Assembly (NCBI GenBank): GCA_023053545.1
Contig: JAKZAN010000006.1
Coordinates: forward strand, 5,089,001-5,153,000
Reading direction: 5' to 3'
DNA from: Lepidurus packardi
Lineage: Eukaryota; Arthropoda; Branchiopoda; Notostraca; Triopsidae
Length of the DNA: 64,000 nt
Shown here piece by piece: positions 1,587-64,000 of this stretch (position 1 is its first letter; the number at the start of each line of letters is the position of its first letter). Both the position numbers and the translations under genes were made by a program. The notes under the pieces were generated by a model. It had not been told where the DNA came from. It did no database searches and saw nothing but the letters and a program-made list of their open reading frames with translations.

Positions 1587-4500
1587 GTGAGCCATTACTT
1601 ATCGATAGCCCAGGCCCGCTATTTGTTATTGAACCACCTTATCTGGTCGAGTACTCTAACTCAACCGGAGTTACCATCGATTGCATTGGCAGGTAAATAA
1701 AAATTTATATCGGCAGATAAATACGAATTTAGTCAATAAAAGTGTCTGTAAAGCTAGAAACAATTACACCAATTATCCTTATCGATAAATAATCGATATA
1801 GAATAAAGAATTAGAATAATCGATAATAGAATAGAATAATCGATATCGATAATAGGATAGAATAATCGATATCGATAATAGGATAGAATAATCGATATCG
1901 ATAAAGAATTTGTAGAATTTGTAAGAATTAGAAATAATCGATATAGAATAAAGAATTAGAATAATCGATTATAGAATAGAATAATCGATATCGATAAAGA
2001 ATTTGTATTACTTAATTTTAAAAGAATTAATAAAATTTGTAATAACTAATTTTAAATAATTAAACGATTTTTTAAATAAAAATAGTTTAAAGCACGGTAT
2101 AAAAATGGAATAATACTGTAATTAGTTTTATGCATAAAACTAATTACAGTATTAGCATTTATTGTGCATTTATTATTATATTTATTATTATGCATTTAGT
2201 TAATGTACTTAATGTTCCTAAATTGTAATCTGCGAATTGTGTTATCTGGTTGGGTTACACATAGTTGTATTGTTGCCCGGATTACGGATAAAGGACATGG
2301 TGCATTGTCTGATAATACTAACATTTGCATTGTTGTTGGCAGGGGTCAGACTATAGTGAAAGTTGAATGGTATTACGCGGATGGTTTACCCGTAAATTAC
2401 ATTCCTGGTTTGCGTCATGTGCTCAACAATGGGAGCCTCAGTTTCCCGCCGTTCAGTGCCAATCATTTTCGTCCTGATATCCATAGCAGTGTCCTCCGTT
2501 GTGTCCTCAGCAATCAAGAAGGCAAACTCATTAGTCGCGACGTCCACATTCGCGCAGGTACAGCGCATTACTTTGACAACTGTATTACTAGTACAAACTA
2601 TAGCCACTCCTCGCACTTCCTGCCTCCTACCTCCTTCCTACCCCTTCCAAATTGCACTCACAGATCCCTCACCTATGCACACGATTACTGCCGAACTCCG
2701 ATTTTCCATTCCAAACCTACTAACTTGAACTTAAGCATGTATTGAGAAGGTATTTTCTTTCAATTCAAAACCTACTAACACAGATTCCTCACCTATGCAC
2801 ACTATTACTGCCGAACTCCACTTTTCTTTCCATTCAAAACCTACTATCTTGAATTTAAGCATGTATTGAGAAGGTATTACTCATGTATTGTATGTATTGC
2901 TCCCGTTGTATCATCTTTTGGCCGTCGTTCTTTCCATTCAAAACCTACTAACTTGAATTTAAGCATGTATTGAGAAGGCATTTTCTTTCAATTCAAAACC
3001 TACTAACACAGATTCCTCACCTATGCACAGTATTACTGCCGAACTCCACTTTTCCATTCAAAATCTACTAACTTGAACTTAAGCATGTATTGAGAAGGTA
3101 TTTTCTTTCAATTCAAAACCTACTAACTTGAATTTAAGCATGTATTAAGAAGGTATTACTCATGTATTGTATGTATTGCTCCTTTGTATCGTCTTTTGGC
3201 AGTCGTGGATCAAACCTTTGAGGTAACAGTTCCAGATGTAGCTGCAGTATTTGGCCAATCAACGCTTTTACGATGTATGGTTCCCCTTTTCATCAAAGCC
3301 TACGTAACCATCACCTCATGGATCAAAAACTCGGCGGAGATCATCTACCCTACCTCAGACTTCGGTAAAAATCCACCCTTCCGCTTGCTCTTGGTTCTTT
3401 TTCGTGTGTGGTTTTGAGGGTTTCGAGGAATGGTGCTGATGAAAGTTGATGTTGATGTTGATGTTTGAGACTATGCATATGTATGAGCTAATTTAAGAAG
3501 GGAAGGAAGCGTTATTGATCTGGAAAACGAAGGAATGGAGGTATCTCTTCTTCTCTTTGGGGAGTTTCTCTCTCTTATTTGATGTATGTGTTGTGTGTCT
3601 TGTATGATCTGCAGAGAGCAAGCGCCTGATGCTGACAACCGGAGATCTGTTGATAAGGACGGTGGAAGCCAATGATAATTATGCTAACTATCAATGTCGT
3701 GTTATGCACCGCCTCTCCGGGAAGACAACCGTGAGCAGTAATATGGGCAAATTAACGCTCTCAGGTACATATTATTGAGATATTTACATGCACGTACCCC
3801 TGGAATGCTGCAGCCTTGCTTAGTTTCCTAAAATTTGCCTTGACGCTTTTGTCCCATTGAAATCCAAGGAACTTTGTTCAGCGTTAAGTCTTGTTGTCCA
3901 AAAGGGTACGAAAGGATACGGAATGATGTCTTTCTTGGCTTTCTTCGCTCCGTAGAGTCCAAAAACCCATTAGCAGCACGTGTTATGGACAGGTTCATTA
4001 CTATCCATGCCAATCAGGGGAACAACGTGATTCTGTTCTGCCCAGCTCAAGGGTACCCACCACCCTATTACAGGTAATCATCTTATTTTCTCCCTTTCCT
4101 TCGATCTTCATTGCATTCGTCATTGGACTCTGATTCCTCTAAACTTGATTACCTTAACTCCTCACGGAATCCTCCCTCCTCTGTCGTCGTTTATTTCTGC
4201 CGGGAAGTTGGTACAAAGATAGCAGCTATGGATTGGAGATGGTCCAAGCCAATGTTCGCGGCGAGCTGTATTTTATCAACCAGATTCAGGAACACCAAAG
4301 TGGGCGGTATTACTGCTACGCGAACAACAGTTTGGGAGGCGACAGATCGGAAATCCAAGTACGCCTTTTCGCCTCTTTCTTCCTGTCTGTCCTAAGCAGC
4401 AATCGTTTCCCATGGAAGTTCGCGTCGTAATCGATGAAAACGAAACGAAACTGTTGGGAAGGCTTTTGCAGCTTTTCAATTAGAGCACGCTATCGAAAGT

Positions 4501-7500
4501 TCATTGAGGTTGTTGTTGTGTTTCTTAGGTGGTGGTGAGTTCGCCGCTGATGGTGAGTGTCACTCCAACCTACTTGAAGGTGAATCAAGGTCAAGAAGCG
4601 GCGTTGACTTGTGCTTCCTCGGGTGGGATGTTTGGAAGTGGGTTCCATGGTCGCTCAGGTCAATTGAGTTGGCTCAAAGACGGACATCCGATGCGACTGT
4701 CTCCGAGGCACTCGGTACTGAGCGACAAGCTGGTGATCCGACAGATGCAGAAGGAAGACCAAGGCATGTACCAATGCATGGTCAAGGCGGACCGCGATAT
4801 GGCCCAATCGGCGTCCGAACTCCGCTTAGGAGGTAAAGAGTCTTTCCGACCTACGCTCCATGTCCTCTCGTCACGCTACGTTAAACGGGCTATAGTTAGC
4901 TTCTTAGAGAATCTCCTTGCATTCTTCTCAAATTCTCCCTTAGCACTTAACGCTAACGTTTTTAATCCCTCCATTAGCGTTAACGCTTCTAAACTGAGTA
5001 ACTGTAACACTCTGAGTGACGGAAACTCAGAGCCATTCAAAGACTCTTCGCGTTTCAACAGACTTTCCCTCGATTCGACTCTCCAAGACATTTATCTCTA
5101 AATAAATGATCGAACGATCCAAGCGATCCAGGGTTCTGCACAAAAGTGAACGGAGTCAATGATTTTGTCTAATTAAACTACAGACTCTTCGAAGTCGATC
5201 GAATGCATTTAGAATGTATTAAAAGCGATGGAATAGAATTGCAATTGGGATGTGTTTTTGCCATGTGTATACCATAGCCCCTTTAAGAGCGTAACGGAGA
5301 GAAAATGGGAAAAGCAATCCTTAGAGAATCGGTAGTCTCGGAATGTAATCCAATGAATGGCCTAGATGTGATTCCTGTGTTCCTGTACCGGTTTATTGAC
5401 CAAACCGTTCAACCAGGCATGGCCGTTTCCCTAAAGTGCAGTGCAACAGGAAGTCCGAGTCCTTCGATCTTATGGAACTTGGACGGTTTCCCTATCCTTC
5501 ACAACGATCGGTAAGTTTCATTGTTGGGACCCTGGCTGGCGTTCTACAGTAACTAGTACCCACAGTATGTATAGCTAACGAGTCTTTCGAAACCTTGAGC
5601 CAGGGGAGGAACATTTCATTGTTGGGACCCTGGCTGGCGTTCTACAGTAACTAGTACCCACAGTATGTACAGCAAACGGGTCTTTCGGAACCTTGAGCCA
5701 GGGGGGGGGGGAATCTTTCATTGTTGGGGCTCTGGCGTCTATGGTAGAAGAGGTTTCCGAAGACCTTTAGCAGGGAAGGATCATTCACACGTAGTCAAGC
5801 GCCATTAAAGAATAAATGTCCTTTCCATACGCTTCAACCGTCGAACCGTCAAGTCAACCCTAACGCAGTCTAACGCGGAATTGGGGATGGGGTTCGGGGG
5901 TAAGAGGAGAAAAAGTGTCCCCAAACGTTCTCCTGGTAGACGCGAAACGATTTTGCTTTCGGAAATAAGCTTCCCTTGCTTCCTAAGTACCACATGGAAA
6001 GCTATTAAAACTCGCGCTCCATAAAACGGTTCTCGGTTCCAAGTCGGACCCCACTTTTTTGGGTGATACTGTACCCATGCTTAGCCAGCACAGCACACAG
6101 GGTTTTGCTACTCGATTAGACCTTTTGTCAAACGGTTTTGGAACCTCCACTTTCAAAAGAAGGGTTTAGTTAAAGGGGTCCCGAAAGTTTTGCCCCATTA
6201 CTTTCCACTTCCGTGGAAACTTTAGTTTCGATTTGTCTTGTGAGAGAATTTTAAAACATTCGGGGCGAGGGTGGGGGGGAGGGGAATCTGAAATAGGTAA
6301 GTTCGTCGCCATCCGACAATGCCAAAAGTTGCGGCAGTAGTTTAAAGAAACGCATTTCACCAAAGACGATTTCACTAAAGACGGTTTTCCTATGCTGTAA
6401 CAAAGGGAAATTGACCTTAATAGCATCCAAGGGTGATAAGAGTGATTTGCCTATCGTTTAAAGGCGCAAAAGGAACCTTAGTAGCATCCAATGACGATAA
6501 GGACGATTTTGACATGCTTAAGCAGGGAATTCTGGCCTTAGTAACATAGAAAACTGCAATAAGAGCGCTCGTATGTTTAAGCATTCAAACTCTTGTGAGA
6601 GAATTTTAAAGCCTGTGGGTGGGGAAGGGGGAGGAATCTCTAACGTTAAGAGCCTCGCCATCCGACAACGCCAAAAGTTGCGGCAGCAGTTTAAACCAAC
6701 GCATTTCACCAAAGACGGTTTCACTAAAGACGGTTTTCCTATGCTGTAACGAAGGGAAATTGACTTTAATAGCATCCAAGGGTGATAAGAGTGATTTTTC
6801 TATCGTTTAACGATGCAGAATGAACCTTAGTAGCATCCAATGACGATAAGGACGATTTTGACATGCTTAAGCAGGGAGTTCTGGCCTTAGTAACATAGCA
6901 ACCTGCACTAAGAGCGATTTTCGTATGTTTAAGCATTAAAACTCTTGTGAGAGAATTTTAAAGCCTGTGGGTGGGGAAGGGGGAGGAATCTCTAACGTTA
7001 AAATCGTCGCCCTCCGCCAAAGCCAAAAGTTGGGGCAGTTTAAAGCGTTTCCAGCGGTTTCACGATTTCCAACGGTATGGTTGGAAACGTGGGAACCACA
7101 CGCTTCGCGGAAGCGGCGGATAACTTCTGACACTAAAGAGCTAAGGGTTAAGTGCTAGCGGCCTGGGCTTCTTGGATCCTGAATGTTGCATTAAGCTTTG
7201 GAAGCTCGGGAAAGTCTTGTGCTTGTTTTTTTCCCCCTTTTGGCGGAACTAAGAAACAATTTTAAGCGTATATAGCGTGTGGGTTGGCAGTTGACGGTTG
7301 GCGGTTAGTGATAGGGTTTTTGAAAGGATGGAGGTAGAAAAGCTTTCATTCCACCCGAGTAAGTTTGTCGAAGCATTTTAAGTTTTAAAGGGATGTTGTT
7401 TTTTCGTGTGCTTGTGGTTTGAAGGTTCTTGATTGGCCAGTATGTAAACATCCATGGCGAAGTCATCAGTCACGTCAATATCACCACCGTGTACGTGGAA

Positions 7501-10500
7501 GATGGCGGGTTCTTTTCATGTACGGCGGCCAACCGGATTGGCAGCGTGACCCATTCGGCGCTACTTAACGTTTACGGTAAAATTTCGGGTACCCTTCCTT
7601 TTTTTTTTTTTTTCGAGGGTTTATGATTGAGGGAGTGTAGTAAGGGTTACTTAGTGTAATGCGGAAAATTAACGTGGGTTATCTTTTTGTCCTTGGGGGT
7701 TGGCAAAGTGTAGGTTTGCCGATAGTACGCCATATGGGGAGTTTAACGGCCGTCGCGGGTGAAACTTTGGTAGTAAAGTGTCCAGCAGCTGGCTATCCGC
7801 TTCATAAAATCACGTGGGAGAGAGGTAAAAAAATGCCATTTTATGTCTGGGAGTTTGGGGAAGATGCAGTTTACATTTATACCGCTTCACTGGAGATCGC
7901 AAAGTCCACCAACTGCCCTCCTAACTTCTTAGCTTTTCATGATACCTAGCTCCCCCCTTTGCCACCATGATTCGAGGTTCTCTGTTTAAGTACACCAAAG
8001 TACTTTAACTCCCAAACATGGCTTTATGTTTATTTACTTCAAGTACTACTACTTTCCTTACTACTTTCTCTCTTACTCTCTTAGTAAGTACTAAGAGAGT
8101 AAGAGAGATACTAATAAGGAGCTACTTTCTCTCTTACTCTCTTAGTAAGTACTTACTCTCTTAGTAAGTACTAAGAGAGTAAGAGAGATACTAGTAAGGA
8201 GCTACTTTCTCTCTTACTCTCTTAGTAAGTACTTACTTTCTTAGTAAGTACTAAGTGAGTAAGAGAGATACTAGTAAGGAGCTACTTTCTCTCTTACTTT
8301 CTTAGTAAGTACTTACTCTCTTAGTAAGTACTAAGAGAGTAAGAGAGATACTAGTAAGGAGCTACTTTCTCTCTTACTCTCTTAGTAAGTACTTACTTTC
8401 TTAGTAAGTACTAAGTGAGTAAGAGAGATACTAGTAAGGAGCTACTTTCTCTCTTACTCTCTTAGTAAGTACTTACTCTCTTAGTAAGTACTAAGAGAGT
8501 AAGAGAGATACTGGTAAGGAGCTACTTTCTCTCTTACTCTCTTAGTAAGTACTTACTCTCTTAGTAAGTACTAAGAGAGTAAGAGAGAAAGTATTAAGGA
8601 GAGATCGAAGGGTTTTGATGTCGAAGTGATACAGATTATTGCTGACGGTCACCAAGCTAACCTTGGAAGAAATCCAGTCAAGTTGATTGATTCCCGTGGA
8701 TCGATCACGGGGAGAACAAAGATCGTGCCACGGTGATTTTTGGTGCGTAAAAGAGGTTACAGGATACGCTGACGTCAGATTTCTGCGGAAATGTACTGAA
8801 GAGATAAAAAAAAAATGGGAGTAGAAATGAATTAAATTGTTTTTTTTATTTTTTGGGGGGGGTTTTATGGCTCGACATAACGCGACATAAGGCGACAGAG
8901 CTTTTTTTCTTTGCTTTCATGTTTAAGCAGTCTTGCTAACAATTTACAGGGATTTCCTTGAATTGTTTTTCTTTAGTAAATTGCATTTCAAAAACGTTTC
9001 AAAGTAATAATATCTCGTTTTAAAGAAATTTTAAGTCGAAAAATATCAATTTTCACCTTTAAATAACTCTTCAAAGAGCATCTAGATCTGCGTTTTGCTT
9101 TCGGATAATTAACGAATTTTTTATGATTTTTTATGGTTTATGAGTGCAGTAATTCATTCCTTTGTTTCTATTTGATTGTAATGATATTCAGGATTAAATT
9201 TAGTAGTATTCTCTAAGCGTTTCGATGATACTAAATTTAACGGAGAATTCAACTCCCTGTTTTTGCATATACAGAAGGGAAATTGCTGCCCTTGTCTCGC
9301 CGACAAGAAGTGACGGTAAATGGCACGTTAATTATCAACAATCTGCAGCAATTAACCGACCGGGGCAATTACTCTTGCACTGCAACGAACAAACAAGCGC
9401 ATTCAGACTCCAAAGCTCTTCAAGTCAACATCATGGGTAAGTTACGAAAACCTTTTTCATCTCCTTGGTACGAAACGAGTAACCAATCGATACCACCTTA
9501 CTAGATTTAAATTTAAAAAAATATAATATGTAAAACTAAAGAGCATAAGAAAGTAAAAGCACATCAGACTGAAGATATCCCAACAGTAATAATTTGGCTA
9601 ATTCTACACCAATTTCGCCGAACATTTTGGTCAACATTACCAACAGTTCCTCCCAAAATCGTTCCTTTCCAATCCGTGGAGGGCGTTGCGTTAGGCTCGC
9701 GCATCACTCTAACCTGTGTGGTAAGCGAAGGTGACACTCCTTTGACCATCACCTGGCTCAAGAACGGCCACGTGCTACAAGGCGAGGAAGGCGTCGAAAT
9801 CCACGTGTTCAGTCAATACAACGCATTCCTCACCGTGGAACGCGTCACCCCAGCCCACAGTGGTAATTACTCCTGTGAAGCTTCCAACGCAGCCGCTACT
9901 GTCGCTTTTGTCGCCCAAATCCAAGTTTACGGTAAACATAACCCACCAAACTTCCAACCTTGTACTTCCTCTTCCAACCCTACCAAAATCAAGATTTTTT
10001 TTTATTTACTCACCCATTACCTAGCCATTCTATTAGTATGTACCCGACCTGATCCGCCCTCCATGATCTACCCTTAGTAATCTTGTTGTTCTGAGTGAGT
10101 GGGAACTTTGAATGTGTGATCCAAATCCTAGCTAACGTCTTCTGTAGTAGCTAAGTTCAATGTTCTTAAATTTAGTTCTTTTCAGGGAATTCTTGCGTAC
10201 TAACATTCATCATCCTTCGTGTTCATCATCCTTCTGAACACTAACATTTCTTCCCAGATCCATTTCGCTGTTCACCAACCTTCTCAACGGCTTCTAACAT
10301 ATCTTCCCAGATTCCCTTCGAGTACGACGACAGGAAGGAGACTATAGGAGAAGCCAAGGAAGAAGGAAAGGAGTAGGAAGGGAAAAAGGCTCTCGAGGGC
10401 TAAAAAAACCTCGGAATTAAACTTCTTTTGATGCGTATGTGTTGTATTTTTTCTATGTGGTCTCGTAGTTCCCCCGAAAATTGCTCCTTTTGCCTTCCGC

Positions 10501-13500
10501 CGGGATTTGGCTCAAGGAATTCGGGTGCAAGCCACTTGTGCGGTGGAAAGCGGCGACTTGCCCTTAACGTTTGCCTGGCTCAAAGAGCAGGAACCTTTGG
10601 ACCCCGTCATGGGTCTGGAAATCCGGCAATTGGATGCTTACTCGAGTGTGATGATCGTCAACGAATTAGCCCCCTATCATGCCGGAAATTATACTTGCGT
10701 CGTAGCCAATCTGGTAGCTCGTGCTCAGCTTACGGCGGTGCTTATTGTGAGCGGTAAAGTCCAGCGACCATCCACTCTTTTTCCCAAAAAATCATTCTCA
10801 GACCCATGTCACATGCACTTCCTTATTACAGCACATTCGGAGCACTTTACTAGGCACTCCTTTTTCACTTAATTTCTGATCAAACATCACAGCACTTTTT
10901 CTCTCCACCATGCACAGCACTTGACATTTCTGCACATTGCTTCGGTTCCAAAGAGGCAGTAATACGATGTCCTACATCAAACTGGTCAGTCTGATTTGCG
11001 AACTGCAAACTGCAACTGCATTGAACCTGCAACTGCAACTGCAGGAAGATGGATTTGAAATTGGGAGCAGAAAGTTAACCATATCTGAATGACTGAATGA
11101 ATGGAAGAATGACGTGTGAATATTTTGATTTTTTTTAGGATATTAACGGAGGAGCATGTCTGGCTTTTTATACTTTTTTGTACTTTTAGTTTTCCAAAAA
11201 GGAATCACGACTGCCTTTTCTAGTTGTTCTAGCTTACAGCATATGCACACTTTAGATAATTTAGTTCTTTGTTTGTTTTTTAAATAAAAAGTAAATGTTT
11301 GAGAAAGGATGAGCTGTCCCACTTTGCTAATGAGGCGTTTGCACGTGTTGCTGGAATCCATATTCCTAACAGTGCCGCCCGAATGGACGCAGGAACCACG
11401 CGATGAACGTGTTCGCCAAGGAGAGAAATTCGGATGGCCCTGCGCTGCGTCTGGCTTTCCCCAGCCTACCATTGTATGGAAGAAAGTTGTGCGTAAGTGA
11501 CAGAATTTTGTTTCTCTTTCAGGGATTTTTTACGTGCCTAATTCTTTTTCATTTGACTAGTGTGGTTTCTGTTCTGTAGAGCGTTTTCAAAGTACTGTAT
11601 GCCTTCACAATACCCTTACTAAATGTAATACCTCCCCTACTCTCCTACTTTAGGATTTACGATCTTTACGATATTTTCTTTGTTTACAGCTTTATGCTAA
11701 GGTAGATTTGTTATTTCTTCTACACGCTATTTGTTTATCTCTTCTAAAATAGTTCGTTTATTGTTATAAATGGAGTTAAAGCGGTCTGTTCCCAAACGGG
11801 AGCCATCTAGTGACGTCATAAGCAACCATACACCATAGGAACTCAGTTTTAGTCCATGCGTTAAACCTAATTTTCGACAACAACCATAACAAACGTTATC
11901 CATGCGGTTTAGGAAAACAGAAAGTCGGTGTAGAATGACTAGATAGCATGGAAGGTTCTCAAAAAGCAACCCCTGGTTCATGCTTTAAACAAAATTACCC
12001 ATGCATGATGCTCTAGGGACCAGGGCATCATGAATAACTTGGTAGCCCTAGCGCCAGGATGGAGAAAGGGCGGGAGCTTGGGAAAGTCAAGGTAATATTT
12101 CTTCACCAGGTCTGTGTTAATAGGATAAGCAAGGATGCTTTCAGTTTATCGAAAATGACATTTCATTAGAGCCCTTTTGACATCTCTAAAAAGGGAAACG
12201 TGACCTAAACCAAGTCCCAAATCCCTTTTCTCTTTTCATTTGATTTTTTTTAAGTGTTGCTACTAGATTATTGATGTGTCAGCTTCTGCTCTTCTTATTG
12301 CCCGTCTTATTTATCCGCTTTTTCCACGTCATATATATTTTTCTCTCACTTTTTTTCTCTTTTCTTTGGGCTCTTGTGTGTGTCTATCCTTTAGAGGGGA
12401 AAAGCGGCGTTTACAGCGATATTGCCACTAATCAATTCAGTACCGATCTGCCCATTCATTTCTCCAATGGCACACTCCTATTCCGCTCCATCTCCAAGGC
12501 AGACGAAAGTCAATATCTCTGCGAAGCTTTTAATGGCATTGGCGTAGGCTTAAGTAAATTCGTGCAACTGACAGTAGAAGGTAAGTACTGCGGGATTTTT
12601 TTTTCTCCCGCTGCTCTTACTGGTTGGGAGGAAATACTTTCTCACGATATAAAGGGAATTATAGGGAGAAAAAGGAAAAAAAAAGAAAATTCTAAAAAGA
12701 GTTTCCTTTGTGCAGTATCTGCTCGGATAAACAGCCATTCGACGCCAGTCGCGGTGAAGTTGAACAATCCGGCCCATTTGCATTGCACGGCCACGGGAGA
12801 TGCGCCTTTGTCTTTGACATGGAGACACGGATCCCTGTTAATCGGACATGCCATCGACGACAGGTTTTTCTAATTTCACTCCTTTCATTTACTTCTTTTG
12901 GTGATGAAAATGAATTGCGGCTGAAAGGAGCAATGTAACGATTTTTCAGAATTTATAAAACGAGGTAAAAGAGCAAAAATTGGCTAATTTAGTTAACCAG
13001 AACCAGCACGTTCTGTGTATTTATATTATGTGTATACGTGTATTTTCTAGTCCGAAATTCTTATGCTTAGGTTTGTAAAAATGATTTTTCGGATAACCGG
13101 ATGTCACTAAAGACCATGTTTCTATGTTAAAACAAAACAAAATGAACCTTAGTCGCATCCAGAGACGATAAGGGCGATTTTCATATACTTAAGCATCGAA
13201 AGTTCGACCTTATTAACGTCAAAGTGTAATAAGGATGATTTTTCTATCCTGAAATAGAGAGCTTAGTGACAAAAAACTGTCATTAGGGCGGATATCCTAT
13301 GCTGTGACACATGAATTTGGTTTAAGCGTCACGGTGTGTGCTTAATGGACCTTCAATTAAAAATCGACCTTCAGTAACTTAACTACTACTTCACCCATCA
13401 TTGGAATGTATCACCAGAAACTAAATTTTACGCACTAGTTTTATTTATTAAATTAGTTTTTGTTGGCCCTTTACACAGCGATTTAAAAGATTCCAACAAT

Positions 13501-16500
13501 GATTTTAAAACGATTCAAGCGATTTACCGTTTTTTTTCTTCCAAATAAAACGATTTCAAACATTGTCAATTTCTTCTTTTCTTTTGGATGCAAAACCGTA
13601 TCGCAGAGTTGTGATACAAGAGAAAACGACCACAGACGGATCGATTCATTCGGAAATGCATTGGAAGCGGGCGTCGCGTGACGACAGCGGCATCTACCAT
13701 TGTTTCGCTAGCAATTTATACGGCCATGATGAACGCGCTGTGCAATTACTGGTCCAAGGTACTTTAAGCGCTACGTAAACATTATTCCAACCCTTGAACA
13801 GATGAGTAGCTTGGGAGCACATTTTCTAAAAAAAAAAAGAAAAAAAGGTTTCCCATCTCTTTTTCTTTGCTCCCATAGTAACCCCCTATACTTATACCAC
13901 TAACCCCCTCTGTTGTCCACCGGCAGAACCTCCCGACCCGCCAAAACAATTAAGGGTGACCGATAAATCAAGCCGAAGCGTACAGCTGGCTTGGACAGCG
14001 TCCACGGATGGGAATTCTCCCTTAATTCATTACAAGTTACAATACAAAATCCGGACAGGTAAGTAAATAATTCGAGAACGACCCTCTCTTCCATTCCCTG
14101 CCCCCCTTCCTTACATTCCCATCTTTCATGAACTACTGGGAAATGAAGATATCTGAAACTTGCATGCTTCTCATACCAGTGCCTTGGCAAGAACGTCTGC
14201 CAGAAGTGATTGTATCCGGTACCGAAAACGTTGCTATGGTGACGGGCCTCCATCCTGCGACTTCTTACGAATTCAAGTTAATTAGCGTTAACAGCATGGG
14301 GGAGAGTCTTCCGAGCGAGGTAAGAAAAGAGAAGAAAGGAAAAAAGAAAGTATCGGGCTTTGTCCGAAGCTTTAAGTAACAATGGAAGTACCAGTCCAAA
14401 CATTTCTTAGCTGATACTTTGACTGTAATACTCGCTGGGGTACTGGTACTTTGACTGTAATACTTGCAGAGCAAACCAATGCTTTTTGGTTTATGGACTA
14501 TTAAAACACCTCCCCTATGCTTGTTTCCGTAACCCAGGTTTTGGAAGTGACGACCGACAATCAGGAACCCAGTGGTCCCCCGTTAAATGTACGGGTTAAC
14601 GCGGTCAGCAGCCGGGCGCTGGAAATTACGTACAACCAGCCGATACTCGAGCATCTCAACGGCCAATTGAAAGGCTACTTAGTGGGAATCCGAGAACTCA
14701 AGTAAGTTTTCCCAACAAAAGCATCCCAGTAGCTGTTTTCTTAGTTAGAATTTTAGTTTGACGCCTTAGCATGGTGTTTAGCTGGCTAGAGTAACCATCT
14801 CGTGACGTCACAACCAACGCGCCGACTCCAAACGTGTATTTATGTGGTCACATTTCATGTGGCACTACTTAGAAACTGGTTTTAATAGTAGCAGATACTC
14901 AGGAACGACCGAAAAGTAGACCAAATGCTAATTTTGGCTTGGATCGGGGTCTAGTAACCATCTAATGACGTAACAACCAGCGCGGAAACCCCAAAATGTG
15001 CCATTATTGCGTCATATTAGATTGGGCACTGCTTAGTAGCTAGGCTAAGTAGCAGCAAATACTCAAGAACCCTCAAAAAGTAGCCAAAAACACGAATTCT
15101 GACTTGGATCATGGTCTAGTAACAATCTAGTGACGTCACAACCAGTGCCGAGACCCCAAAATGTGTAAATTTTTGGTCACGCTTGACTTGGTTCTGTTTA
15201 GAAACTAGGTTTAGTAGCAGCAGGTACTTAGGAATCCTCAAAAAGCAGCCAAATCCTCAAAAAGGAGCCAAAAACACTCATTTTGGCCTGATCATGGTCT
15301 AGTAACCATCTAGTGTCGTCATGACCAACGCGTAAACCCCAAAATGTGCGATTATTGCGTCACGTTCGATTTGGCACTGCTTAGTAGCTAGGCTTAGTAG
15401 CAACAAATACTCAAGAACCCTCAAAAAGTAGCCAAAAACACGAATTCTGACTTGGATCATGGTCTAGTAACAATCTAGTGACGTCACAACCAGTGCAGGG
15501 ACCCCAAAAGGTGTAAATTTTTGGTCACGCTTGACTTGTGCACTGTTTAGAAACTAGGTTTAGTAGCAGCAGGTACTTAGGAATCCTCAAAAATGAGCCA
15601 AAAACACTCATTTTGGCCTGATCATGGTCTAGTAACCATCTAGTGTCGTCATAACCAACGCGTAAACCCCAAAATATGCCATTATTGCATCATATTCGAT
15701 TTGCCACTGCTTAGTAGCTAGGCTTAGTAGTAGCAAATACTCAAGAACCCTCAAAAAGTAGCCAAAAACACTCATTCTGACTTGGAACACGTCTAGTAAC
15801 CATTTACTGTCGTCATAACCAACGCATAAACCCCCAAATGTGTATTTATTTGGTTATATTTGGTTTGGCATTGCTTAGAAACGGGTCTAGTAGCAGCAGA
15901 TACTCAGAACCCTCAAAAAGTAGCGATAAACACTAATTCTGGCTTGGGGCATGGACTAGTAACAATCCAGTGACGTCACAACCAACCCAGAGATCCCCAA
16001 ATGTGTAGTTTATTTGGTCAAGTTTGGTTTGGCACTGCTAAAAAAAACAAATTTAGTAGCAGCAGACACTCAGGAACTCGCCCAAAATAGCCCAAAACAC
16101 TAAGTTTGGCTTGTGGTCGCGGTCTAGTGCACCATCTAGTGACGTCATAAGGAATTTCTTGTTGCCACAAGTTAAAATTGCTTTCTTAACTCTTCACGGC
16201 ATGGTTTTGTTATCGTATATGAATGGTGGGAAGCTAATATTCTGTGCCTTAAACTATTCGAGTCTCGAGATGAAGTTAAAGTATAAAGTTTGAATGTTTT
16301 TTATCCAAACGAAGAGGAATTGAAACTGGAAGGTTTTTAGCGAATCAAATTTGATGGAATTAAGGATCTGACATCTTTGGTGTCTAATGTGATGCCTTTG
16401 CACAATCTCTCCTCTTTTTTGCTCACTTTTAACACATTCATTACGACTGTCTTCTCTTCTCAGAATGGCTGGGGATTATTATTACCATAAGACGGAGGAA

Positions 16501-19500
16501 ACCGTGACAGAGTTGGTCGTTAATCAGCTGCACCCGTTCACACGCTACGCCGTTGTTGTCAAGGCTTTTAATTCTGCTGGCATTGGGCCTCCCAGCGATG
16601 AAGTAATTGGACAGACAGTCGAGGATGGTAAGGATTCCGCAAGCACCCAAACCTCCCCCCCAAAAAAGAAAATATTTTTTTAAATAAAACTGAAAAGAAG
16701 TCTCCTAACCACAAAAAGCTTTCACTCCCCATCATCTCTCTCATTCATGATCTCATTCTCTGATTCATTTCTTTCATTTCTTTCCTCTACTCTATTTCTT
16801 CTATTCCACTGGGGGGAATCTTCCTCCTGGCACATGTGTGCTTAACTCCTCCCAACGTATGTGGTGGGTGAAAACACTCAAAGTTCCCGAAGGCCCTCCC
16901 TCGGAGACCCGCTGTTTAGCTGTATCTTCCCAAAGTTTGCAGATTAGCTGGCAGTCACCGGAAGAAATGTTCTGCAACGGTATAATTATCGGCTACAAAG
17001 TTCTCTCCGAGCTAGCTGAGCCACAAGGTTAGTTCAAACTTTGTCGATGTATTTCATATGGCTCCTGAAACTTTGTACTAATTGAGATGTCTGGATGTCT
17101 GAATTTCTGAAATTTCTGCTATTTCTCTATTTCTGCATTTCTATCCCCTTTCAAAAGACAACAGCGAAGGTGATGTCAAAACTTCCACCACTCCCAACCT
17201 GGTCCTCAGTGGATTGCACAAGTTCAGCAATTACAGTATCCAAATTGCTGCCTTCACCAAAGCTGGCTTAGGTCCTTACAGCATTTCTGTTTACTGCCGA
17301 ACCCTGGAAGACGGTAACGTCAAACTTTTCTTTTGCATCTTGTAAAAAAAATTGTTGTTGTTGTTGGACTGTTTTTAGTCAAAACTGTGCCATCTAACGG
17401 GCACATTATCGACTACTTCTGACCATTTAATATTTCTGATTTTTTTTTGGATAAAGATTATTTCTAAAACAGCTTTCTATTGATCTTATTATTATCTTTA
17501 AAAAAAAAAAATTACACCACTTCTATTAGTCTGGTATCTTTAAGGTAGTCTACTATACAGTTTCTTAACTTATATAGTCGTTCTGGTTCAGTTTCCCCAA
17601 ATCCTAATACAGTTTCCATGTTAAAGGTTACTGTGATCTGTTCTACTTCGGAGTAAAACAGATCGGAGTAACCTTTAACATGGAAAATGTATTAGGATTT
17701 GGGGGAATTGAACCAAAGAAATTGTTCCTAAATTGCTGAATCGGATGAATAGTTCCGGATGCTCCCACCGCTATCAAAGCGCTGTCATCGTCTAGTAACT
17801 CGGTAGCGTTAGGATGGCTGCCGCCCAACCAAGTGAACGGCCAATTGATCAAATACCACTTGTACATCCGCGCCTTGGAGAGCGCTATGTCTGCCAAGCT
17901 GGGCAAAAGCAAAGCCGTGACGAGTACGGGCAAAGACTCGCCGGTACAGTACCGGGCGGCTCAGAATCAAACGAAGCAACAAGACGCTTCGACCCAAAAG
18001 TTGACGCTGAGTCCCTCGACGACCTTCTACCAGGTGGCGCAACTGCAGCTGCACCAGAAGTACCAGTTTTGGGTCTCTGGAGTGACCAAAGTGGGCGAAG
18101 GAGCCCTCTCGTATGCTGTCACGGTCGGCCCCGCTACGGAAAGTAATAAATGTGACCAATTGAAAGAAAGAGGGACTGATGTCTTGGGTTTCTTTCTTGG
18201 GCTTTTTTTTCGTATCTGTGTCTGTGTTTATATATATAAAACAGTCCCAGCTGGCGTGGTATCGTTTGGCAGGAACTTGCGAGTCAATTGGAAAGAAGAT
18301 GTCAACTTGGAATGCAATTTTGTAGGAAAACCCGAGCCGGCGATCACTTGGAGAAAGGGGTCTCTAGAGATTCAAGTCTCAGACAAGTAAGAGTCTTATA
18401 TAGCTTGCCTTCCCTTCTTGCACACAAGAGTCTTTTGGCACGGAGACACATATAGTGAAAATGTTTGTCCCCCCTCCCGCAATATTGATGAAATGAGAGG
18501 AAGAGGAACGAGGAAGAAGAAAAAAAAGCTAATTAAATGCGTGACTGGTTTCGTTGATGCGGTAGACGACAAGTTTTTGCGGATGGATCGCTTATCTTAC
18601 GGGACCTGCAACTGTCCGACCGGGGAAACTACTCGTGCCATGTACGGAACAAACTGGGAGCGGACCAAGTGACCTACAGCCTTATCGTTCTAGGTAACAG
18701 TTGAAAAACCGAATCCTTGACCTGATGTATCCGGAATTTTTCCAATAATTTTGTACAGTGAAGCGATTAGCGTAATTAGGATTAGCGTAATTTGGATTAG
18801 CGTAATTTAGGTTAGAAAAAGTTATACACCCTGAAGCAAACGTTGGGTAGATTCTGGACTCTTTTTACTGGTAATTATCGCCTCAGAAAAAAATACACTA
18901 ATGAGCGCATTGAAATTGATCCCTGGACTCATAGGGACCGAACCATGCCCTTTCTTTTGAAAGCTAAAACTGGTCTGCATGGGGCTTTGATTCATTTGAA
19001 AACTCAGTCATAAAATAGTGACTTTTTCTACGCGCCATCTATACATTGCGGTCCGAAACCCGTTGCATGCCGTCTATCGAGCCAAGATCCGCGCCTGAGA
19101 GCCTTTCGTCGAGTTTCGGTTCGGCTTAAGGGTGGTTCACACTACCGAGCAAAATAAAAAATCACCAGTCAAAATCAAGAAAAGCCTTGACTGGGGGCGT
19201 GGTTTGGTCTGACTTGTGCCATTCAAATAAAACTTTGGTTTTTGAGCAGCTAAATAATAAATAAAACTGTAAAAAGCTATCCAAATTTACTGAATTAATA
19301 TTATAAAGTTTTTTGTTGCAGTTTTATGTTTTGGCTGCAACATAAAACTTTATTATATTAATTCAGTAAATCTGGATAGCTTTTTACAGTTTTATTTATT
19401 ATTTAGCTGCTCAAAAACCAAAGTTTCCTGCATGTTTTTCATACAACTTTGCTTGGCAATGTGGCAAGTCACACAAATCACAACAAAGGACCCAAATTCA

Positions 19501-22500
19501 ATCTTATTTGAATGGCACAAGTTAGACCAAATCAGACCAAACCACGCCCCCAGTCAGTGATTTTCTTGATTTTGACTGGTGATTTTTTATTTTGAATGGT
19601 AGTGTGAACCACCCTTTAGCAGCCGAGACCCGTTGCATACCGTCCTTCGAGCCAAAACCCGCGGCTTAGAGCCTTTCAGCGAGTTTCGGTTCGGTTTAGC
19701 ACCCGAGAGCCTATTCCCTGGCAATCCGCACGGTGCGAAGGAAAAGTGACTTTCTTAAGTTTGTTTGTGATTAAGTTTGTGAAGTAACCAAAGCGCGTGC
19801 GAAACTGGTTGAGCATTCAAAAGAAAGATAATAGTACGTCGCTATGACTCTAGAAATTGATTTTCAATGCGCTCATAGGTAAAGGCGCTAGTCCTTCAGC
19901 AAGCTGTTCCCCATTGTTATAAAGATAGGAAAAATTGAAATTTTGCGGAAAGGGCCTCAATAATTCCGTTAAATAATTACAATTACCTTAGTCATTTTGC
20001 ATAATTGACCTAGGGGTTCTTGAGCCATAACACTTTCCTTTGGTCTATCCTATGACACATCTTTTTTTCATTTAGAAACCTTACTCCCCCTTTAAAACAG
20101 TTCCTAATTAGATTCAGAAAAAAATAACACAAATTTATCTTCTAGTTGCTCCAGCAACGCCGGTTTTGTCCATCACTTACGTGACCAATCATTCGGTCTC
20201 GCTGAAATGGAGCTTGAGCAATTCGGGTGGAATGCCTTTATTAGGCTACGTTATCCGATACCGTCTCCATGGCCAAGAATGGCGAGAAGAACGGGCCAGT
20301 AAAAAAGACTTGGCGTTTACATTGGCTGGCTTAAAATGCGGATCTGCTTACCAGGTTCTTTTTTGTGTTTTTTGGATATTGTCCCTTCTTAACTCTTCAA
20401 GTTGTTATTGTCCTGTCTGGTTTGGTCGTATAATGGAAACGGGGTACTTTTCTTATTAAGGTTTACATGGTCGCTTCCAACCGCGTGGGTTTAAGTGAAG
20501 CCAGCAACACTATCGCCACCTACACCAAAGGCGCTACAATCAGGTTCCCCGTTCAGCAAAACGAATGGATTGTAGTCAATACGACCACCATCGTGATTCT
20601 CATGAAGGGTTTTGATCGCGAGTGTCCTCTCAAATTTATGGCCGTGGAATACCGGCCTTATCATTCTTCCACTCCATGGATTACAGGTAACGGTTAACCA
20701 AGTTGGTTTCCCTTCTATAGAAAATAATTTATGAGATCTTCAAGTATGCTAGACCACTTCCAATACCCAAATCCTCATAACTTAAACACGACCTGCATGT
20801 GAAGTCGTCGTCTGTCGTGGACCATTTAACTTATACATGATCTTTCGTTTTGTTTTGTTGCCATTGTTTACATATCTAGCTGCTCTGCATGAGCAAGACG
20901 GAAACTACGTGTTTGATCATTTAGAACCTGCAACGCGCTACTTGTTGAAGCTAATTGCCCATAACGATGCAGGGACTTCCAGCGTTGATTTGGATATTAC
21001 CACCTTATCCATCTATGGAAGTAAAAAGATCTTTTTCCATTTAATTTAACTTTTTCGTTACATTTCATGTTAATTTATCTATTGATTTGACTCATTTTTG
21101 ATGATTTTTTATGGATTTTTTATACAGGTACAATGATTTTTTGATTTTTTTGATGATTTTTTATGGGGGTTTTTTAAGGTACAATTTGGCCAAATGCTGC
21201 CCAAGATGACGGTCTGGAGACAAGCAATTTTTTTGCTGATGTTCGTATTCTGACTTCCATGATTATCTCGAGCGTGACGGTTCTCATCACTTTATGCGTC
21301 ATGTGCTTTTTTTATTGGAGTCGAAGTGAGTTTTTTCTGTATGTTTTATCTCTTGCTTCTGTTATTTGCTTTCCTCTTTGTCTTTGTTTCGTTTCTTCAA
21401 AAAAGCTTTTGTTTTTATGATGTTGTGTCTATCATGCATTTCATGTTTTATATTCCTGAATTGCTTTGTAAGGACGCGCCATCGCGCGGCCCAATACGGA
21501 AACTGACTCCGGGCAGTTTACTGAACAAACAGCTGATCAGAGGTTTAGTTATGCCCAACGAGAAAGATGCTACTCCACTGTCAGCAAACGGTCTGGTAAT
21601 ACTTTATGTTTTACTTTCAATTAGTTTACCTCTTCTTATTTCTGTATATTTATTTACGTTAAAACGTAAACACAATATGGTTTATATTCATCAATTTCTT
21701 TATGAATATCGGCCATCTTCTTGATTACATTCCTTTAAAGGTAAACACAGTACATTGTTTACATTCCTTTAACGTTAAACACAGTACATTGTTGACATTC
21801 ATTTAAAGGTAAACACAGTACATTGTTTACATTCCTTTAAAGGTAAACAAAGTAATGACTTACATTGATGAAAAACCTTACTTGTTAAATTGCATACTAT
21901 TTTACTCATAAAACTTAATTTTGTTTTTACTTACTTACGTGTGGTTTTCGTTTTCTTATGGCTAAAAGAATCAAAACTAATTTTGTGTGTGGCAAGTTTT
22001 ATATTAACTCAATTTTTTATTTCTTTCTTCACCCGTTAATAAAGAGTACGACGACGAGATCTGCCCGTATGCTACTTTCCAAATGAAGCACATAGATAAG
22101 AGTTCCAGCCCGGATAACCGAGAAGGCAACTATCGCATGTCTACGTACCGGGTACCGGTTAACAAGGTAAAAGTAACCATTCTACTCTCCGTGAAAACCG
22201 GTTAACGCAAGAGTGGCCGTTACTTTGAATCTTATTTTGGCCGGGAAGTAATGTCTTTTTTTTTCGTTTCCTTTTAGCTCGGCGAACGGGAAATGCCTAC
22301 ACTGCGTTTGTCGGACAAAATGTCGGACGAAGAAGCGTCTGAGAATTCCAAATGGTCTGATACGGACACGGACTATTACCGCGAGTCGTATACGAACCAA
22401 GACTCACGAAAGAGGCCTCCGCCTGTTCCCAAATGGCCCATAAGACCTGGGGCCCAGTCTCGGAACAGTAAAAAGATCCGGCAGAACCCTCCAAGTAATG

Positions 22501-22891
22501 CTTTTAACTTTTTTTATCCTTTTTTGCGCCCTTTTATTTAACCGATTGTAGCTAATATTACTGATCTTCTTATCTTTTTCCGTGCTTCGGGTTGATTCAT
22601 AAGGCTTACCGCCCAGTAACTCTCTAGGTTGGCCTTCCAAAACTAGGTAATATTTTAACTTTGGGAATGTGGTGATCACAAGTTTTTTAGAATGTTTGAA
22701 GTTTTTATTTGATTTTTTATATTGCCAGGCGTTTGCCAAATGTTCCGCAGTTGACAGTGACACCGGAACGAATTGAGCCTCCAAGCAAGTTCGCAGACTT
22801 TGAGCAGCACAGTGAAGCTGGATGTGATTTAGATCCTCGTTTGAAATCTCGTCGTCTTAAGCCTGAAGAGAAGTTTACGATTGCTGTATAG
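1587..22891 (+). CDS. Dscam: Dscam-family immunoglobulin cell-adhesion receptor (5' partial)
   Basis: Homophilic neuronal adhesion receptor of the Dscam family. Exons: 1587-1692, 2343-2557 (Ig1); 3203-3364, 3615-3764 (Ig2); 3956-4073, 4208-4358 (Ig3); 4529-4832 (Ig4); 5366-5510, 7425-7576 (Ig5); 7714-7824, 9278-9436 (Ig6); 9647-9931 and 10469-10753 (two Ig7); 11373-11492, 12395-12580 (Ig8); 12716-12863, 13607-13758 (Ig9); 13927-14058, 14180-14319, 14538-14701, 16464-16627, 16884-17027, 17158-17313, 17753-18142 (FN3 1-4); 18245-18386, 18566-18693 (Ig10); 20146-20354, 20461-20686, 20880-21020 (FN3 5-6); 21179-21325 (TM); 21473-21595, 22045-22166, 22278-22494, 22604-22646, 22729-22891 (tail). 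All phases join: 1965 residues if both Ig7 exons are kept, 1870 with one. Family signatures seen: YSNSTG in Ig1, LYRFIDQTVQPGMAVSLKCS in Ig5, DEICPYATF in the tail, and a C-terminal TIAV like the TMAV end of Drosophila Dscam1 (a likely PDZ ligand). Ig2 and Ig3 exons are single, so this is not a hypervariable Dscam. The exon at 9278 could start at 9275 (tandem acceptor CAGAAG). Confidence 0.95.
1795..2000. repeat. ATCGAT-rich minisatellite in Dscam intron
   Basis: Imperfect tandem copies of an AT-rich unit built on ATAATCGATATCGATAATAG, about 28 bp per period. The motif is self-complementary around ATCGAT. Confidence 0.75.
2111..2154. repeat. 44-bp perfect palindrome
   Basis: The bases 2111-2132 are exactly repeated as their reverse complement at 2133-2154, centred on ATGCAT with no spacer. 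It lies in the intron between the two Ig1 exons. Confidence 0.9.
2690..3175. repeat. Mixed tandem repeats in Dscam intron
   Basis: Two motifs alternate: one containing TTCAAAACCTACTAACTTGA followed by AAGCATGTATTGAGAAGG (about five copies), and one containing CCTCACCTATGCAC followed by TACTGCCGAACTCC (about three copies). They fill most of the intron between Ig1 and Ig2. Confidence 0.8.
5513..5785. repeat. Direct repeat of ~100 bp in Dscam intron
   Basis: A segment beginning TTTCATTGTTGGGACCCTGG and ending GAGCCAGGG occurs twice almost identically, followed by a third diverged partial copy. It starts directly after the donor of the first Ig5 exon. Confidence 0.8.
6236..7045. repeat. Tandem ~354-bp repeat, Dscam Ig5 intron
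   Basis: The string CTTGTGAGAGAATTTTAAA recurs at about 6238, 6592 and 6946, a period of 354 bp; the third copy is incomplete. Each unit carries internal modules of about 55 bp containing GATAAG(G/A)(G/A)CGATTTT, which belong to a family scattered through other introns of the window. Confidence 0.8.
8040..8600. repeat. 80-bp hairpin-forming minisatellite, Dscam Ig6 intron
   Basis: The junction AAGGAGCTACTTTCTCTC occurs at about 8116, 8196, 8276, 8356, 8436 and 8516, exactly 80 bp apart. Within each unit, TCTCTCTTACTCTCTTAGTA is followed by its reverse complement, so every unit can fold into a long hairpin. Copies differ by only a few substitutions. Confidence 0.92.
9647..9931 (+). CDS. Dscam: Dscam exon Ig7-A
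   Basis: This 285-bp exon encodes one complete Ig domain. It starts VPPKIVPF, has the first cysteine in LTCVV, the tryptophan in ITWLKNG and the second cysteine in GNYSCEASN. It is phase 1 at both ends, so it can be skipped or swapped without breaking frame. It matches the Ig7 position of Dscam, the exon-9 array in Drosophila Dscam1. Confidence 0.92.
10469..10753 (+). CDS. Dscam: Dscam exon Ig7-B
   Basis: This second Ig7-type exon has exactly the same length (285 bp) and the same 1-1 phase as the exon at 9647. It starts VPPKIAPF and has cysteines in ATCAV and GNYTCVVAN. Hand alignment with the other copy needs no gaps and gives about 38 identities in 95 residues. The next exon (VPPEW) is clearly Ig8, so the domain count is one too many unless the two exons are alternatives. 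Confidence 0.92.
13080..13330. repeat. Copies of a dispersed ~55-bp module
   Basis: The Ig9 intron holds three or four diverged copies of the module with CCTTAGTxxCATCC, GATAAGGGCGATTTT and a TATGCTT-like end. The same module occurs at 6380-6940 and 53040-53150, and in reverse complement at 26640-26850 and 61030-61180. Confidence 0.65.
14760..16155. repeat. ~172-bp satellite array, Dscam FN3-2 intron
   Basis: About eight to nine copies of a unit with TGGTCTAGTAACCATCTAGTG, a GACGTCA-like core, AACC(C)CAAAATGTG, TTTGGCACTGCTTAGTAGCT and CTCAAAAAGTAGCC. Units alternate between two subtypes, so the longer repeat is about 345 bp. It fills most of the intron between 14701 and 16464. Confidence 0.9.
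17585..17714. repeat. Near-perfect 57-bp inverted repeat before FN3-4
   Basis: The arm starting GGTTCAGTTTCCCCAAATCC is repeated as its reverse complement with about five differences and a ~15-nt loop. The 3' arm ends about 38 nt before the acceptor at 17751-17752, so in the pre-mRNA it would form a strong hairpin next to that splice site. Confidence 0.88.
18901..19876. repeat. Outer inverted-repeat element (host of a nested MITE)
   Basis: The left end ATGAGCGCATTGAAA and right end TTTCAATGCGCTCAT are inverted copies. Similarity continues for about 100 bp inward (for example CTTTCTTTTGAAxGCT and xAACTGGT). Two direct copies of a ~80-bp segment containing CCCGTTGCAT and GAGTTTCGGTTCGG lie inside (19049-19128 and 19621-19699), one on each side of the nested element. 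Confidence 0.7.
19129..19615. mobile_element. Harbinger-like foldback MITE
   Basis: Terminal inverted repeats begin AGGGTGGTTCACACTACC and the two halves are near-complementary along almost their whole length, with an ~80-bp extra stretch in the right arm. A 3-bp direct repeat TTA flanks it (19126-19128 and 19616-19618). PIF/Harbinger elements make 3-bp TWA duplications. There is no coding capacity, so it is non-autonomous. It sits in the intron between Ig10 and FN3-5 of Dscam. Confidence 0.8.
21725..21860. repeat. ~35-bp minisatellite, Dscam tail intron
   Basis: About four copies of GTAAACACAGTACATTGTTT followed by ACATTCCTTTAAA. Confidence 0.85.
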
Positions 22892-24061: not shown

Positions 24062-28157
<4,096 letters not shown>

Positions 28158-29232: not shown

Positions 29233-32200
29233 ATGTTTCTAATAAACTTGAGTTTTATGATCTGTGTTTGCCTTCTTATGAAAAGTAAGTTTACCACTGG
29301 GGAAGTGACGTTCGAGAATTATTCCTACAGGGAAATCGATGTGGCTATCGGAGAAAATGTACCTTACGATCCTAAACTGATTAATCAGATTAAGGTAAAA
29401 CTTAAACTTTCATTGAAATCTGTTTGATTGAAACCCTTCTTTTCTTTTTTTCACACTTCTTTTCTCATCAGGATATGTTCACTGAAGGCTCGAAAGTGCT
29501 GTTTAAAGCTACACACCAGAAAGCATACTTTGGGCAAGTGAATATATGGGTCCCACCTACTTGGGAAGTCCAAACTGAACCCAATGAAATTGACACGTCT
29601 CTGAAAGGCAAGGACAAGTGGTTTGAAGATGCCGCCTTACGTTTAGAGGCGGAGCCTCACCCTATCCATGGCGATAACCCATTCACCCTCCAACCCCGTT
29701 CGTGTGGGGAGCCCGGCCTTTACATGCACTTTACGACCAAGTATCTCAGAAACCCCAAACAACACGGAAACCCAGGTACAACTTTGATCAAGTTATAAGC
29801 TTTAACCACAATTTTGATGTAAAAAAGGGCGTGTTTTGGTTCACGAATGGGCTCACTACCGCTACGGTATCTTCAACGAATACTGTGATAGTGACGATCC
29901 TCGCCTCAAGTTCTACCACGACTCGAACCAAACCGTAACTTACTTTTATAATAAACAAACAACGTTGCAGAGTTCCTTAATTTGAATTTCTTTAATAACA
30001 GCTTAAACCCACACTGTGTCCTAGCCATGTGAAAGGCTGGTTTTACAAAAATGGTAACGAAAGTTGCACCAAGAATAGCAAAGGCTTCCCGAACAAAAAC
30101 TGCTCTTTTCACCCTGACAGCACTAGCGACGCCAACGAAAATGTGACTGTCTCGCTCATGAGCGTCCCCTATCTGAAAAACGTAACAATTCCTTTGCAAT
30201 CTGATACGCGCTTAGGAAAGAAAATGGGAAATATTAGTAAAAATTACTATTATATTAGTAAAATATTACTATTATATTAATAAAATAATTACTAACTAAT
30301 TACTAATTAATTAATTAATTATTAACTAATTACTATTATATTAGTAAAATATTACTATTTTTAGGTAGAATTTTTCTGCAATGAAGAACAACATAATGTA
30401 TTCGCCCCTACCAAACATAACGAACTCTGCAATCAAACATCTACTTGGTCCATCATAAACTCTCACTCGGATTTCAAGTAAAACTTAAACTAGAAATAAC
30501 TATAACTATAAAGCCATTAAATAAATCACTAAAAATAGTCAATAAAAAGTGTGAATTCTTTGCAATGGCTTGGAATGAATTAGGGACCTCAATGCAAGCA
30601 CCGTTTTTCCCAATACCACTCCCGAGTTCTGTATTTTCCAAAGCAAAATTCCCAAACCGAAACAATTTGTAGTGGCATTGGTGGACCTTTCCGAGACCAT
30701 GAAGAAAAAGATAGAAACCGTCCAAGCTTCTTTGAAAAGGTACGAAAGCTAACCTAATACTAAAATAAAATAATACATTTTAATATTCGAATATTTATTG
30801 TTTCTGTCGCACAAAGTTTTGTCAAGTACAGGCTACCTAGAAACATTGAATTCGCAGTCATAGGCTTTTCTGGCTTGTATGCAGAAAAAAGCATGAGGAA
30901 TTTGAAAGTTTTCCAAAATTTGACAACTGTCAAACATGTCAGACAGCAAACAGAAATACTTGAAAGTATTGACGCCATGCGTGATGAATATAATGACCAA
31001 AAGATGGCGCAGTCAATCAACAATCGTCCTACTGGCCGAGCCCTTAATAATACCCTTAAAGTAATCCTACACGTATCCTTAACTTAGTGTACCTTTACTT
31101 CAGCAAACTAATGTAAAAATCGGTGTATTGTGGATTCTTTCCTGAAAAAATAGTACCTTAAAAAGCAACTTGGCAATCTGGCCAACGCTTCCGTGTTGCT
31201 AGTTATAGACGGTGCCACAAATTTCGGCCCGTTTGTCAATGACATGATTGACAATCTGATTGAGGATGAACTGCAAGTGAACGTTGTCAGCTTAGGCCAT
31301 TCTATCCAACCAAATTTAAAGCAAAAGGTGACTTTACAGTCAAAATTAATAAAGTCAAGCTTCTCCATACAGTAGTCATTTGTTTCATTCCCCTTTCCCT
31401 CAGATTGAGGAAACTTCGGGTGCATTGTATTGCGTGGAAGTTTTGAACGATAATTCAACCATTAAGCTCCACCAATTGGACTCGGCTTTGCTGCAGGTTG
31501 CTTCTAGGATTGGTTACGACCAGCTAACTCCAGTAAAATTATTAATACCTCTCAAGTAAATGGGAAAGGAAGTAATCCAACTTTCACTAACTAGCTTCGG
31601 GAAAGTACAATAACGCTTAGTGATGGAGAAGACTGGAATGGCACTTTCGTGGCGGAAAAACTAGGCAAAGCATCGCGAACAGAAGTCTTCGTTTGTGCTA
31701 AGGAGAAAGAAGAGTTTACATTGACCAGTAAGCCTAATAATAAACCCAAACATAACTGAATTCCAAATGGTTGGTTAGTTTGGAACGCCACTGCCGAAAT
31801 CTACGGGGAATCCAGTTACTGTCATTTCACCCATGTGCAAGTGGTACACAGAATTAGATCAAAATAGTAGAGAGTCAACTTAACTTAACTAGATCAAACT
31901 AAACTAACTTAACTTAACTAGATCAAACTAAAGTATTCCATAATTAGATCGGGGAAACTTACTTTTCGCTAAACTACACCAAAACGGGTGATGGGCCTGA
32001 TAACTTGACTCTCTCAGTGATTATTAGCTCACGAAGTCACAGACATCAGCTGACTCCTGACCGAAACGTTAGGTAAGAAACTTTGTATCTGACAAGCTGA
32101 ATAACCATACATTTTTCACCTAGACAACGAGAGATTCCACCCAACATCGTTCATCCAGCGACTCCCAAAGCTTACTTGATCCTCACAAAAGGTTACTATG

Positions 32201-62100: not shown

Positions 62101-62121
62101 CAGCAATTGTCCAAGATCTGA
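56154..62121 (+). CDS. ST7: ST7 family multi-pass membrane protein
   Basis: Homologue of vertebrate ST7/ST7L (suppressor of tumorigenicity 7). Its biochemical role is poorly known; it has TPR-like helical repeats and a few membrane segments. Exons: 56154-56325, 57778-58014, 58496-58666, 58723-58956, 60079-60176, 60248-60438, 60507-60609, 60718-60961, 61886-62121; 561 residues (human about 585). Highly conserved blocks: [119 protein letters not shown] and [18 protein letters not shown]. Membrane segments are near residues 20-46 and 60-85 and in the last exon ([19 protein letters not shown]). The end [16 protein letters not shown] is the long-isoform C-terminus. The start ATG follows an in-frame TAA four codons upstream. 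Intron 3 is only 56 nt. Confidence 0.96.
61030..61185. repeat. Dispersed ~55-bp module in ST7 intron, reverse orientation
   Basis: Two to three copies with AGCATAGxAxATxCGCCCTA, TGCGTTTxATGTTACTAAGG and ATTTT, the reverse complement of the Dscam-intron module. Confidence 0.65.
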
Positions 62122-63916: not shown

Positions 63917-64000
63917 CTTTGAAAGGTTTAAAAAAAAAAGAGAGAGATTTCAAGGATTAATTCAAGGAATAATTCAGGATTTCAAGTGTTTTCAGAGGAG
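63917..64000. other. Wnt2 intron at window end
   Basis: Intron sequence upstream of the exon at 63798-63916; the next exon must end in phase 1. Nothing else is visible. Confidence 0.7.

Follow-up and report, generated by a model that had tools for sequence, protein, structure and literature searches.

A non-hypervariable Dscam gene of Lepidurus packardi with two Ig7 exons, very probably a two-way splicing switch

Two alternative exons for the seventh immunoglobulin domain (Ig7) have been described in Dscam-L2 of Drosophila and Daphnia pulex (PMC4244043, in its Figure 8 legend for D. pulex), and D. pulex orthologues are mentioned elsewhere as unpublished data (PMC3236188). Drosophila Dscam2 is non-hypervariable and has exactly two Ig7 alternatives (PMC3364881, PMC5465998); most cell types have one of its isoforms A and B, and A cannot bind B (PMC5991427). 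In Strigamia maritima, 40 Dscam genes carry an Ig7 exon duplicated two to five times, with no such duplication of the Ig2 and Ig3 exons, and transcripts suggest mutually exclusive Ig7 splicing (PMC4244043), which is reported for at least one gene (PMC5465998). Two alternatives of the orthologue of exon 9, the Ig7 exon of Dscam1, are also often seen in Chelicerata (PMC4835542), and 178 pancrustacean Dscam1s carry 9 to 53 copies of exon 9 (PMC12431208). Here we analysed a 64,000-nucleotide stretch of Lepidurus packardi DNA (the window), which contains one Dscam gene, on the forward strand, with two Ig7 exons that we call Ig7A and Ig7B. The gene is very probably a non-hypervariable Dscam in which Ig7 is chosen by a two-way switch, each mRNA carrying one Ig7. 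That arrangement is already in print, including in a crustacean, as D. pulex Dscam-L2.

We rebuilt 35 exons of the gene, the first, for Ig1, starting at 1587 and the last ending with the stop codon at 22891. These exons form a single open frame, giving 1871 residues with either Ig7A or Ig7B alone, 1966 with both and 1776 with neither. The protein has the canonical Dscam order of Ig1-9, fibronectin type III domains (FN) 1-4, Ig10, FN5-6, a transmembrane segment (a hydrophobic stretch within 21179-21325 judged by eye) and a cytoplasmic tail. Signal-peptide exon(s) were not found 5' of 1587. The Ig1-9 region is colinear with Drosophila Dscam1 (3dmk) over Ig1-8 (660 bits), and the DSCAM-specific Pfam domain PF25059 (FN3_DSCAM-DSCAML_C) was found in the whole protein at 2.7e-45. 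Only Ig4 and Ig7 are encoded by single exons, each of the other eight Ig domains being spread over two. The gene resembles pancrustacean Dscam1 (Dscam-hv), in which Ig7 likewise lies whole in one duplicated exon; Dscam1, however, has arrays at Ig2, Ig3 and Ig7, whereas here only Ig7 has a second exon. G+C amounts to 38% in the introns, whose median length is 202 bp, and to 41% in the whole window.

To establish the identity of the two exons, we ranked 801 six-frame pieces of the window (those starting before base 24000) against the fly and human Ig7 and two chelicerate sDscam Ig1 domains, the fly and human references being used singly, the chelicerate pair alone and all four combined, in profiles free of window sequences. 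Ig7A and Ig7B were the top two pieces, and the third, Ig10b, scored far lower; phmmer gave the same identity. Both exons fell inside the Ig7 clade (support 97/96) of a 24-domain tree, and a second run placed them in the same way. Ig1-Ig6 of the window each paired with the matching Dscam1 domain in the 24-domain tree (81/95 to 100/100), and Ig9 paired with its human counterpart (87/75), the placement of Ig8 being without resolution. An AlphaFold2 model of Ig7B, built from an alignment with Ig7A as the sole other row, reached a mean predicted local distance difference test score (pLDDT) of 91.9 (five models: 91.9, 87.1, 64.7, 42.7 and 41.9). Its best 15 PDB chains, from 11 entries, were all Dscam: sDscam constructs starting from Ig1, fly Dscam1 Ig7 and Ig1-8, and human Ig7-9, the table not stating for multi-domain entries which domain matched. 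This fold support covers Ig7B only. Ig7A and Ig7B are both Ig7 domains, and the Ig7 duplication proposed in an earlier note on this DNA stands: the trees, named there beforehand as the check, put neither exon with another Ig domain.

The Ig1 domain of chelicerate sDscam is the homologue of Ig7, and the top five structural matches of Ig7B come from it. Ig7B is also closer to it in sequence (59.9 bits, compared with 38.8 for Ig7A; 7y4x), and the two joined in the trees at 85/87 and then, with a long-branch warning, at 80/88, neither starred, a grouping on which we do not build. Such affinity might suggest that one of the Ig7 exons is driven by a separate promoter, like the 5' cassettes of sDscam with their alternative promoters, so that the choice would be made through the transcription start. 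We give this almost no credence: both exons are internal, with Ig1-6 upstream in frame, whereas sDscam is described as having no Ig1-6 (PMC4835542).

Ig7A and Ig7B are closely matched in form. The gene model confirmed the exon coordinates given in the earlier note, including the flanking ends at 9436 and 11373: both exons are 285 bp long, have AG...GT flanks and phase 1-1, and start with VPPKIVPF (Ig7A) or VPPKIAPF (Ig7B). The gapless identity of about 40% claimed there was likewise recovered, at 37/95 residues (39%; 36/90 by BLAST). Over the 94 whole codons 36 residues are identical, whereas shuffling one copy 10,000 times gave 6.2 on average and at most 17. When all 35 exon peptides were searched against the window by tblastn, this pair gave E values of 1.3e-20 and 9e-20, the next-best pair being FN2b/FN3b (5e-8) and the best other Ig pair Ig6b/Ig10b (2e-7 and 2.5e-6). 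Identical bases number 47, 54 and 25 of 94 at codon positions 1, 2 and 3, and 25 of the 36 shared residues are encoded by differing codons, which argues that both exons are old and constrained.

Both exons retain the two cysteines and the tryptophan. An N-x-S/T site in the F strand is present in both, and Ig6 and Ig10 carry one too. Dscam1 Ig7 and sDscam Ig1 dimerise via the ABED face, and in sDscam all Ig1 isoforms have an F-strand glycosylation site that prevents the other face from taking part (PMC10154414). The ends of both exons look canonical, judging by eye and from few residues, with an Ig6-facing and an Ig8-facing end in each: Ig7B starts VPPKIAPFAF (fly VLPRIIPFAF, human VPPFIQPFEF) and Ig7A ends QVY (fly NVY).

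No other duplicated exon was found in the gene by tblastn of the 35 exon peptides against the window or with profiles of Ig2a, Ig3a, Ig7, Ig8 and the transmembrane exon. The 801 six-frame pieces likewise held no convincing unlisted exon, a third Ig7-like one included; the Ig7, Ig2a, Ig3a and transmembrane profiles contain window sequences and match those exons by construction. Ig2a, Ig3a and the transmembrane exon each occur once, which bears out the earlier claim that the gene has no other exon arrays and is not hypervariable; the arrays at the Ig2 and Ig3 halves that mark hypervariable Dscam1 were not found. Two matches were not counted as exons, one of Ig9b by tblastn (5641-5745, E 0.002) and one of the Ig3a profile (5553-5651, E 0.005), each lying inside, or partly covering, the 98-bp tandem repeat at 5516-5704 in the Ig5 intron. 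Remaining matches outside exons had E values of at least 0.068.

The gene thus has exactly two Ig7 exons, interchangeable by length and phase, and no other duplicated ectodomain exons, as in the two-exon Ig7 Dscams. We liken it to D. pulex Dscam-L2 and Drosophila Dscam2 by their descriptions, and to the S. maritima paralogues, in which Ig7 exons but not Ig2 or Ig3 exons are duplicated; in S. maritima, however, the canonical Dscam family numbers 60 to 80 genes (PMC4244043), compared with one Dscam gene in the window. No Dscam2-4 label occurred in the list of 16 PDB sequences with E values up to 1e-40, and one scan each of genome_contigs (146 pattern matches) and viral_contigs (52) returned no relative.

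In the two-way switch that we propose, the spliceosome would pair the Ig6 exon end at 9436 with one of the two, Ig7A or Ig7B, and splice that one on to Ig8 at 11373, leaving one Ig7 per mRNA. The two isoforms would be identical outside Ig7 and would differ in homophilic binding like Drosophila Dscam2A and 2B. Isoform-specific binding and cell-type-specific choice, both reported for Drosophila Dscam2 (PMC5991427), may by analogy apply to this gene too. Precedent and the ends of the domains suggest that Ig7A and Ig7B are mutually exclusive.

Several observations lend this proposal no support, and nothing in the sequence points to exclusion. Ig7A alone, Ig7B alone, both and neither all keep the frame, so the reading frame does not enforce exclusion. 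All three introns around the two exons are GT-AG, and the 537 nt between the exons are too long for steric exclusion. The donors of Ig7A and Ig7B rank 9th and 11th weakest of 34 and their acceptors 16th and 33rd weakest of 35, which is unremarkable and gives no sign of splice-site weakness. Docking-selector RNA pairing among the three introns stayed within shuffles, both for the best ungapped stems (12, 18 and 183 of 200 shuffles reached the observed score) and for duplex energies (22, 25 and 19 of 60). The best upstream-downstream stem, with arms 9559-9572 and 10986-10999 complementary at 13/14 positions, was not significant. Muscleblind-type YGCY sites number 1, 2 and 4 in the three introns, with no enrichment. 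Divergence between the exons is not centred on the dimer face either, 11/28 positions being identical in the ABED strands and 9/22 in CFG (p = 1.0; strands delimited on the Ig7B model, with strand A placed by hand). A post hoc split of strands B+D+E against C+F gave p = 0.09 and was not used. Finally, Ig7B matches the Pfam Ig family Ig_3 less strongly than Ig7A (37 compared with 69 bits). Beetle docking sites for Dscam1 exon 9 are described as clade-specific, and some authors doubt such sites (PMC8042237), so a single sequence was unlikely to reveal any.

Could both exons enter every transcript, giving two serial Ig7 domains and 11 Ig domains in total? The frame is kept with both exons (1966 residues), the splice sites are ordinary, and the domain count of a Dscam can change, as in the tick Ixodes scapularis, whose Dscams are reported to include duplicates of whole genes and of domains and to depart from the canonical domain make-up (PMC4244043). 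An Ig8-facing end on Ig7A and an Ig6-facing end on Ig7B would, however, be needless in tandem. In the parts of the literature drawn on here, full-length Dscams with published make-up have one Ig7, duplicated Ig7 exons are spliced alternatively or thought to be, and none is described as having two Ig7 domains one after the other. We therefore regard constant inclusion of both as very unlikely. The exons might instead be regulated cassettes, used singly, together or not at all, for up to four ectodomain forms: A, B, A+B (with 11 Ig domains) and neither, the tandem-Ig7 form occurring in some cells. All four combinations lie in one open frame, and the frame, the splice sites, the YGCY sites and intron pairing revealed no mechanism of exclusion. 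The lack of a visible mechanism in one sequence is weak evidence, however, and those same parts of the literature held no Dscam of this description; we think such a four-state switch very unlikely. If real, it would give a full-length Dscam ectodomain of new length. Both readings offered in the earlier note, the Dscam2-type switch and the 11-Ig Dscam, were reasonable; documented two-exon Ig7 Dscams and the retained Ig6- and Ig8-facing ends (by eye) favour the two-way switch, which is supported and not new.

The intron between Ig7A and Ig7B holds two copies, 85% alike, of a CTAACATTTCTTCCCAG-like sequence (10241-10267 and 10294-10320). They resemble a branch point plus acceptor and lie upstream of the Ig7B acceptor at 10468, where they may be decoy 3' splice sites. 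Similarity is 67% for the Ig7A acceptor region (9640-9666) and 10785-10811.

The duplication of exon 9 (Ig7) is placed before the split of Myriapoda and Pancrustacea, and those of Ig2 and Ig3 after it (PMC12431208). Because the Ig7 duplication came first in this account, the initial stage on the way to hypervariable Dscam1 may have looked like a two-exon Ig7 gene. The gene in the window adds one more to these two-exon Dscams. A sister grouping of Ig7A and Ig7B was neither shown nor rejected (approximately unbiased test, p = 0.206).

Table 1. Features of the window.
Feature	Position	Strand	Remarks
Ig1-Ig6, constant 5' part	1587..9436	+	11 exons; frame open over all joins
Ig1-Ig6, first six of the 11 exons	1587-1692, 2343-2557, 3203-3364, 3615-3764, 3956-4073, 4208-4358	+	
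Ig1-Ig6, last five of the 11 exons	4529-4832, 5366-5510, 7425-7576, 7714-7824, 9275-9436	+	
Ig7A exon	9647..9931	+	285 bp; complete Ig7 domain
Ig7A-Ig7B intron	9932..10468	+	537 bp; GT-AG
Ig7B exon	10469..10753	+	285 bp; complete Ig7 domain
Ig8	11373..12580 (11373-11492, 12395-12580)	+	two constant exons 3' of the choice
Ig9, FN1-4, Ig10, FN5, start of FN6	12716..20686	+	gene model; Pfam Ig and fn3 families
Remainder of FN6 and single transmembrane exon	20880..21325 (20880-21020; 21179-21325)	+	
Cytoplasmic tail	21473..22891	+	five exons; stop 22889-22891; gene model
Jumonji helical domain exon	25911-26162	+	Pfam
CLCA family protein exon	29406-29795	+	Pfam
Adhesion-type G-protein-coupled receptor (GPCR)	35597-37354	-	GPS and 7tm_2 domains; Pfam
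Frame with UDG-superfamily match	50198-50716	-	barely below the Pfam cut-off (23.8, cut-off 24.3 bits)
ST7 exons (+), then Wnt exons (-)	58671-63956	+/-	Pfam

The exon neighbours of the gene include ST7 next to Wnt, and ST7 adjoins Wnt2 in other animals. To our knowledge, Drosophila lacks several of the Jumonji, CLCA, adhesion GPCR, ST7 and Wnt neighbours. Tandem arrays lie in the Ig5 intron (6303-7044; 349-bp units, 2.1 copies, 91%), the Ig6 intron (8072-8601; 6.6 copies of an 80-bp unit that includes palindromic stretches, 96%) and the FN2 intron (14790-16147; units of about 165 bp, 8.1 copies, 74%). A 64-nt inverted repeat with 4 nt between its arms (17584-17715, 91% complementary) lies 37 bases upstream of the FN4 exon, and the Ig10-FN5 intron contains a nested fold-back at 19124-19620, with 92-nt arms (97% complementary) inside 93-nt arms (91%). 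Farther downstream, a 19-bp unit is repeated in 38.8 copies (32616-33365, 95%), and open frames 260 to 409 codons long run across it.

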